Source: Nitrospirales bacterium
GTDB taxonomy: Bacteria; Nitrospirota; Nitrospiria; Nitrospirales; UBA8639
Assembly (NCBI GenBank): GCA_029261295.1
Contig: JAJDBP010000029.1
Span: forward strand, 62,001-126,000
Reading direction: 5' to 3'
Length of the DNA: 64,000 bases
Under the pieces are notes generated by a model, which was given only the letters and a program-made list of their open reading frames with translations, did not search any database and had not been told where the DNA came from. The number at the start of each line of letters is the position of its first letter. The first letter of the stretch is position 1. Shown piece by piece: positions 46,939-48,256 of this stretch. The position numbers and the translations under genes are program-made.

Positions 46939-47817
46939 TTAGACGTGAGCAATCGTTGTCTTCCGTAAGTTTCTCGGTCGGTTTTTCTTTTGACTGCCAT
47001 TCTCGATTCCATCAAGCTGGACACGCAATTGTCGAAGCGCCGCAGAATGCACACGACACACACCCGACTCGGTCAAACCTAACTGGCTACCAATTTCTTT
47101 CATCGTCTTTCCTACATGATAATATAATTGCAACACCTCCTGTTGCCGAGACGACAAACTGACCAACGCCGCTTGTAAGGCCGCCTTCATTTCTGCGTCA
47201 GCACAAGCCGCAAATGGGTCATGACGTTCTTGATCTGGCAAGACATCTCCCAGGGTACAACTGTCTTCCTCATATCCCACTGGCTCATCTAAGCTGACTA
47301 ACCTTGGATCACAGGTTGCGCCTCTCTCAAGTTCTGCTTGCGACACTCCTAACGCCTTGGCCAATTCTTCCGTTGTTGGGGACACTCCATATTTTTGGAA
47401 ATAGTTATCAACGATTTGCCGGATTTGTTCTCGACGCGCCCGAACAGAGCGGGGCACCCAATCCATGGCACGAATTTCATCCAACATCATGCCGCGAATC
47501 CGATATTCTGCAAACGTGCGGAACTTAATATCTCGCGTTGGGTCAAATCGTTTCAGTGCGCTTAACAGGCCCATCGCCCCGACACTGCTGAGATCTTCAA
47601 CATCTAAGGAAAATGGATTTTTAAGCGCCATGGCCCCCGCCATGCGACGGATAATCGGAAGAAACTCTTGAAGAATGGCTGTCAATTGCTCTTGATTCAG
47701 CTTGGAATAATATGTCTCCGCTTCATGAGGCTGGACAACCTTCGTCGCCAGTCCGACCGAACCCATGCCTATGGCTTCTTCGGGTAAGGGATATGAATGA
47801 TGTCTCTGTTCGTCCAT
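46939..47817 (-). CDS. fliA: FliA/WhiG-type sigma factor (sigma-28 family)
   Basis: From ATG 47817 the protein is 292 aa. Region 2 reads VGAMGLLSALKRFDPTRDIK, FRTFAEYRIRGMMLDEIRAM and DWVPRSVRARREQI, diagnostic of FliA. Region 3 (VSPTTEELAKALGVSQAEL) and region 4 (SSRQQEVLQLYYHVGKTMKE, LGLTESGVCRVHSAALRQLR) follow. An N-terminal tail and a basic C-terminus make it about 40 residues longer than E. coli FliA. Sigma-28 directs late flagellar and chemotaxis genes, none of which is in the window. A riboswitch and terminator precede it, so start codons upstream of 47817 are excluded. Confidence 0.92.
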   Translation of the reverse strand: MDEQRHHSYPLPEEAIGMGSVGLATKVVQPHEAETYYSKLNQEQLTAILQEFLPIIRRMAGAMALKNPFSLDVEDLSSVGAMGLLSALKRFDPTRDIKFRTFAEYRIRGMMLDEIRAMDWVPRSVRARREQIRQIVDNYFQKYGVSPTTEELAKALGVSQAELERGATCDPRLVSLDEPVGYEEDSCTLGDVLPDQERHDPFAACADAEMKAALQAALVSLSSRQQEVLQLYYHVGKTMKEIGSQLGLTESGVCRVHSAALRQLRVQLDGIENGSQKKNRPRNLRKTTIAHV

Positions 47818-47840
47818 ATTCTGGTCTGTCCTTTCCGACC

Positions 47841-47873
47841 AAAAAAAAACGCCCAACTCCTGAGGAATGGGCG
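47841..47873 (-). terminator. Intrinsic terminator between the riboswitch and fliA
   Basis: On the reverse strand CGCCCA...TGGGCG form the base of a hairpin (47873-47850, with TCC/GGA inside around TCA) followed by nine T (47849-47841). It lies after the aptamer and 24 bases before the fliA ATG, as expected of a riboswitch expression platform. It also blocks read-through from lptF-lptG. Confidence 0.85.
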
Positions 47874-47896
47874 CATGAACGAACGTGGGATATCCT

Positions 47897-47997
47897 ACAG
47901 TTCGGTAACCAGACTAACCCTGAACCTTCTACTGGCCCATGGTCTCTTGGCTTTGCGCCCTATCCTCACGGATAGTTTGCCCTTGTCACCTGCTCAA
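47897..47997 (-). promoter_or_regulatory. Cyclic-di-GMP-I (GEMM) riboswitch aptamer upstream of fliA
   Basis: Reading the reverse strand, ACAAGGGCAAAC (from 47986) leads into a five-pair stem TATCC/GGATA capped by GTGA (a GNRA loop, 47969-47966). GGGCGCAAAGCC (47960-47949), a second stem region, and GGTTACCGA (47910-47902) follow. These are the conserved GGGCAAAC, G-CGCAAAGCC and GGUUACCGA blocks of class I c-di-GMP riboswitches, with the GNRA loop in the right helix. TAGAAT at 48004-48009 on this strand gives a start just before the aptamer. The terminator follows about 25 bases after it. The exact P1 pairing is weak by eye. Confidence 0.85.
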
Positions 47998-48256
47998 TGA
48001 CTTATTCTACTATTCACACCTCATAACGAAATTCCCGTCATTCTTTCCATCTTTGAATTTATCAATTCTCTTAAAAAATTATCATTTCCTTTGGCTCTCT
48101 CTCCGTCCGTGCAAATGTTATCGGGCCCAGCCTTTTTGGAATTAAGGAAAAAACTTGACGGAGAATGAGAAAAACATAGAAATTCATATATCCCCAATAA
48201 TTAGCATGAAACTCCCTATTTACATTTGCAGGAAAAGAAGGATTTTTCAGTTAATT

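Follow-up and report, generated by a model that had tools for sequence, protein, structure and literature searches.

Introduction

Riboswitches usually act on single operons. Clostridioides difficile offers a partial precedent for riboswitch control of a sigma factor, as its class I c-di-GMP OFF switch Cd1 (Cdi-1-3) governs the flgB operon, of which sigD is part (PMC6366702). In Bdellovibrio, surface proteins and proteases are under the global control of FliA, and merRNA, an abundant c-di-GMP-riboswitch RNA, is co-expressed in attack phase (PMC3627812). Geobacter genomes each carry several GEMM-I elements that control extracellular functions, the GEMM-Ib elements being cGAMP-selective (PMC8835794).

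Here, we analyzed a 64,000-nucleotide stretch of DNA from a Nitrospirales bacterium (hereafter the window), in which a GEMM-I aptamer and an intrinsic terminator precede a FliA-type sigma factor gene, fliA2. As with Cd1, the switch is predicted to act by termination as an OFF switch on a FliA-type sigma factor, which in turn governs other genes in C. difficile and probably does so here. In C. difficile, however, the switch governs a flagellar operon of 23 kb together with the sigma factor for flagella, whereas here it is on the single-gene transcript of a second, non-flagellar paralogue whose likely targets bear GEMMs of their own. The locus recalls Bdellovibrio, with its FliA regulon of surface proteins and proteases and its co-expressed c-di-GMP-riboswitch RNA, but the table in PMC3627812 gives no FliA promoter for merRNA, and neither a riboswitch on the sigma gene nor a second FliA paralogue is described in that paper. 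Unlike the cGAMP-selective elements of Geobacter, which likewise occur several to a genome and control extracellular functions, the elements studied here have the residue of the c-di-GMP type, and none of the GGDEF proteins found is of the Ser type. The GEMM-I aptamer class itself is already known. In the literature that we searched, we met no case in which a GEMM controls a dedicated FliA paralogue while other GEMM mRNAs have sigma28-type promoters, and no paper on c-di-GMP riboswitches in Nitrospira or Nitrospirales; the circuit thus appears to be undescribed. In the reading that we favor as the probable one, a class I c-di-GMP riboswitch terminates transcription of fliA2, and FliA2 drives other GEMM mRNAs.

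Results

A GEMM-I aptamer in front of a second FliA paralogue

When the whole window was compared with all Rfam families (cmscan), the sole match above a gathering threshold was to RF03167 (c-di-GMP-I-GGC) at 47990-47900 on the reverse strand (full length, 59.6 bits against a gathering threshold of 59, E = 1.5e-11). At the same position, the parent family RF01051 (c-di-GMP-I) scores 63.1 bits against a threshold of 35, placing the element among class I c-di-GMP riboswitches by covariance-model score in both families. A sequence-only reading had proposed a GEMM-I aptamer on this strand, to be checked by such a search, and the elements that it named (GGGCAAAC, a GUGA-capped stem, GCGCAAAGCC and GGUUACCGA) are all there. 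Its description of a hairpin with nine T before an ATG is equally accurate: the intrinsic terminator (47841-47874, reverse strand) consists of a GCGCCC...GGGCG(U) hairpin at 47874-47850 and a T run at 47849-47841, and the start codon follows at 47817.

The gene behind this leader (fliA2, 46942-47817, reverse strand, about 292 aa) encodes a protein that passes the NCBIfam model FliA_WhiG (TIGR02479; 204.9 bits, cut-off 189.6) and contains sigma regions 2, 3 and 4 (Pfam). The genome (4.06 Mb, 38 contigs) holds two genes above the FliA cut-off. The higher-scoring one (FliA1, 265 bits) is the last gene of an flhB-flhA-flhF-flhG-fliA operon elsewhere in the genome, and this second fliA inside a flagellar operon rules out the window gene as the flagellar FliA. 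In a phylogenetic tree, the window gene and its GEMM-linked relatives form one clade (support 100/99) and do not group with the FliA proteins of flhF-flhG-fliA operons, as an orthologue of flagellar sigma28 would. Members of this clade share the MLDEIR-MDW-PRS motif with flagellar FliA but carry ESG.CR.H instead of ESR.CQ.H in region 4.2 and lie outside the flagellar operon. Across the 60 relatives surveyed, most members of the family have both FliA1 and FliA2, and the close named relatives of FliA2 are Nitrospirota/Nitrospirales genome bins. The initial reading of an aptamer, a terminator and a FliA-family sigma factor holds across the family, with the correction that the sigma factor is a divergent paralogue and not the flagellar FliA. 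Flagellar genes are indeed missing nearby, as it had stated, but flagellin and a flagellar cluster are present elsewhere in the genome.

Two further observations concern the gene itself. In one relative (G028, locus L081), the FliA2 coding sequence seems to be frame-shifted close to the C-terminus, and in the window a cell wall hydrolase gene (PF07486; 46309-46938, forward strand) is convergent with fliA2.

The linkage of aptamer and gene is widely conserved. A GEMM lies upstream of fliA2 in 28 genomes, comprising 20 of the 21 of the genus and eight from other genera, and thus in every FliA2 genome but one (G025), which has the most divergent FliA2 and in front of which no GEMM was detected. 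Within the family, 29 of 31 genomes with a GEMM also encode FliA2, the other two being incomplete assemblies, while none of the six genomes without a GEMM does so (Fisher p = 1.2e-5, phylogeny ignored). In another family of the order, four genomes (G038, G052, G058 and G059; loci L068, L071, L069 and L070) carry a GEMM before a gene for a flagellar rod/hook-like protein, so GEMM targets vary among families.

Sigma28-type promoters upstream of GEMM elements

Including the one at fliA2, the genome contains seven GEMM-I elements. The other six precede genes for Flp pilins and of the TadE/TadG type, for two proteases (a subtilase and a gametolysin-like metalloprotease) and for two secreted, adhesin-like proteins giving matches of the B-repeat/fn3 or Kelch-like type. 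At one locus (L195, 1940-6380), two similar subtilase genes lie side by side, with a GEMM directly before the downstream one.

We scored the regions upstream of these elements with a matrix based on the known sigma28 consensus. Among 94 non-fliA2 GEMMs in FliA2 genomes, 76 have a sigma28-type promoter (TMAAG-N15-CCGATAA-like) within 200 nt upstream, compared with 2/94 and 5/94 in the strand and reversal controls; among random segments the rate is 5.5%. Since orthologues make up many of the 94, these do not count as 94 independent cases; broken down by unrelated target families, the counts are 36/45, 13/18, 11/11, 3/3 and 3/3. In this genome, four of the six other GEMMs have such a promoter (p = 1.3e-4). 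Genome-wide, the consensus is not enriched, with matches about equal to those of reversed-pattern controls, and the promoter claim thus rests on position upstream of GEMMs. The matrix resembles the Bdellovibrio FliA consensus TTAAG-N16-CCGATA (PMC3627812).

Which sigma factor reads these promoters is the point on which the favored circuit meets its most serious competitor. FliA1 is present in nearly all of the genomes and flagellin promoters (TCAAGTTT-N11-GWCGATAM) look like those of the GEMMs, so FliA1 could be the reader; the element at fliA2 would then be an ordinary GEMM-I riboswitch on a sigma factor whose regulon is unrelated. The change from ESR.CQ to ESG.CR in region 4.2 of FliA2 could alter the choice of -35 element, and one FliA1-only genome (G052) has a sigma28-type GEMM promoter. 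Against this stand two other FliA1-only genomes (G038 and G059) without such promoters, the co-occurrence of GEMM and FliA2 across the family and, as a natural experiment, G027, which lacks FliA1 and flagellin and yet retains FliA2 together with sigma28-type promoters at its GEMMs (scores 10.7 and 9.7). No sigma28-type GEMM promoters were found in the genomes without any FliA (G046, G051, G053 and G058). We therefore regard FliA1 as a possible but rather doubtful reader and FliA2 as the likelier one. The sequence-only reading had proposed that c-di-GMP is linked to a regulon through a flagellar-type sigma factor. The likely regulon consists of other GEMM-controlled surface genes instead of flagella.

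FliA2 might also transcribe its own gene. A sigma28-type promoter-like box, TAATTCCA-N11-CCCGATAA (48118-48144, reverse strand), lies ~130 nt upstream of the aptamer. Its CCGATAA is invariant in 20 aligned genomes, ~100 nt between box and aptamer are poorly conserved, and its score of ~9.4 in most genomes is slightly below the threshold used. A second conserved box, GAGGT-N8-TAGAATAA (48002-48022, reverse strand), is apparent in the alignment as a putative promoter box that abuts the aptamer. It contains the TAGAAT (48009-48004) previously taken for the -10 element, which is present as described but shares the upstream region with the other conserved box, the more distal and sigma28-like one. 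Further upstream, a conserved block (TATGAATTTCTATGTTTTTCTC; 48200-48150, reverse strand) may serve as an activator or UP site, or belong to the end of the preceding transcript.

Predicted direction of the switch

The terminator helix is 98% paired among 25 distinct leaders, with three double changes. Its 5' arm GCGCCC (47869-47874, reverse strand) could pair at six of six positions with the aptamer core GGGCGC (47955-47960, reverse strand), a complementarity found in nearly all leaders, and its 3' arm repeats the core; aptamer and anti-terminator are therefore expected to compete. Transcripts ending before the 3' arm are predicted to fold, in the window and many relatives, into a long anti-terminator that joins the terminator's 5' arm and loop to the 3' side of aptamer P2 and the core. 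Longer and full-length transcripts return to aptamer plus terminator in most leaders. In the window leader, the full-length minimum-energy fold retains the anti-terminator, and in G008 and G020 free-energy folds do not favor it. Although the anti-terminator is 91% paired, its covariation is no higher than in shuffles, and we thus infer this step; G39-C141 is the only core pair altered on both sides (to A-U), and this alteration, limited to a clade of three members, breaks down in one of them (G031).

An early pairing of the 5' arm with the core, followed by aptamer and terminator, predicts an OFF switch. With little ligand, the terminator 5' arm would pair with the aptamer core and allow read-through into fliA2; c-di-GMP would fold the aptamer, free the 5' arm and let the terminator form, so that c-di-GMP presumably turns fliA2 off by transcription termination. 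The opposite direction, in which c-di-GMP favors read-through, has a counterpart in the class I ON switch Bc2 of Bacillus thuringiensis (PMC6366702) and would suit a role in biofilms should pilus and adhesin genes depend on FliA2, but we consider it unlikely, given that nearly all leaders have the complementarity of 5' arm and core, which the pre-terminator folds also use.

Two features near the start codon were also observed. Immediately ahead of the terminator, the segment GUUCGUUCAU (47875-47884, reverse strand) shows a ten-nucleotide complementarity to the start-codon region AUGGACGAAC (47808-47817, reverse strand), kept in the genus and G028 only; the first codons of fliA2 are conserved and the next residues strongly variable. 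This pairing is a possible translational layer of control. In addition, a small conserved GGUC...GACC/GGCC hairpin lies at 47840-47820 (reverse strand), in the loop of which the fliA2 Shine-Dalgarno sequence would sit.

Ligand of the GEMM elements

An A at position 20 marks cGAMP (GEMM-Ib) riboswitches. The window aptamer instead has G20, along with A47 and C92 by position, within GGGCAAAC, CGCAAAG and UUACCGA, respectively. The roles of these ligand-contact residues have been described (PMC9049102). The base taken as position 20 is a G in 117 of 119 automatically scored GEMM elements (18 more were unscored) and an A in the other two, in one of which the pattern is possibly out of register. 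Hybrid (Hypr) cGAMP synthases are recognized by a Ser in GGDEF proteins (PMC8835794), which none of the seven GGDEF proteins found has, with D in its place; neither A20 at the window aptamer nor a Ser-type GGDEF among these seven proteins was found. Based on these residues and the lack of a Ser-type GGDEF among the seven proteins, c-di-GMP is most likely the ligand. That cGAMP or another dinucleotide is bound, as by Geobacter GEMM-Ib or the uncharacterised RF03167 variant, seems improbable: the best Rfam match is indeed to a family of variants, with a margin of only 0.6 bits over its threshold, but the canonical RF01051 model scores 63.1 bits, and G20, A47 and C92 are all there. A chance or artefactual resemblance without function, in favor of which nothing was found, can be dismissed in view of the E value of 1.5e-11, the near-invariant core and a place before fliA2 kept in at least 26 genomes.

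Discussion

In the proposed circuit, FliA2 would transcribe the other GEMM mRNAs, which encode a Flp/Tad pilus, secreted proteases and adhesin-like proteins, from sigma28-type promoters. With one riboswitch on fliA2 and further GEMMs in the mRNAs that FliA2 probably transcribes, c-di-GMP would therefore act twice. Computation establishes the aptamer, the terminator, the paralogy, the conservation of the linkage and the enrichment of promoters, from which we infer the ligand, the OFF direction, the reading of these promoters by FliA2 and its autoregulation. The chances appear evenly balanced that this amounts to a multi-output loop in which FliA2 reads most riboswitch mRNAs, perhaps including its own, and a flagellar sigma factor has, after duplication, become the master of a riboswitch regulon in Nitrospirales; if so, the second messenger would gate both a sigma factor and the targets of that factor.

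Control appears to run on two levels, with one riboswitch gating a sigma factor and riboswitches of the same class preceding its likely targets, and the duplicated sigma factor has apparently left the control of flagella for that of surface genes. Studies of c-di-GMP signalling in Nitrospirales thereby gain a concrete regulon with testable promoters.
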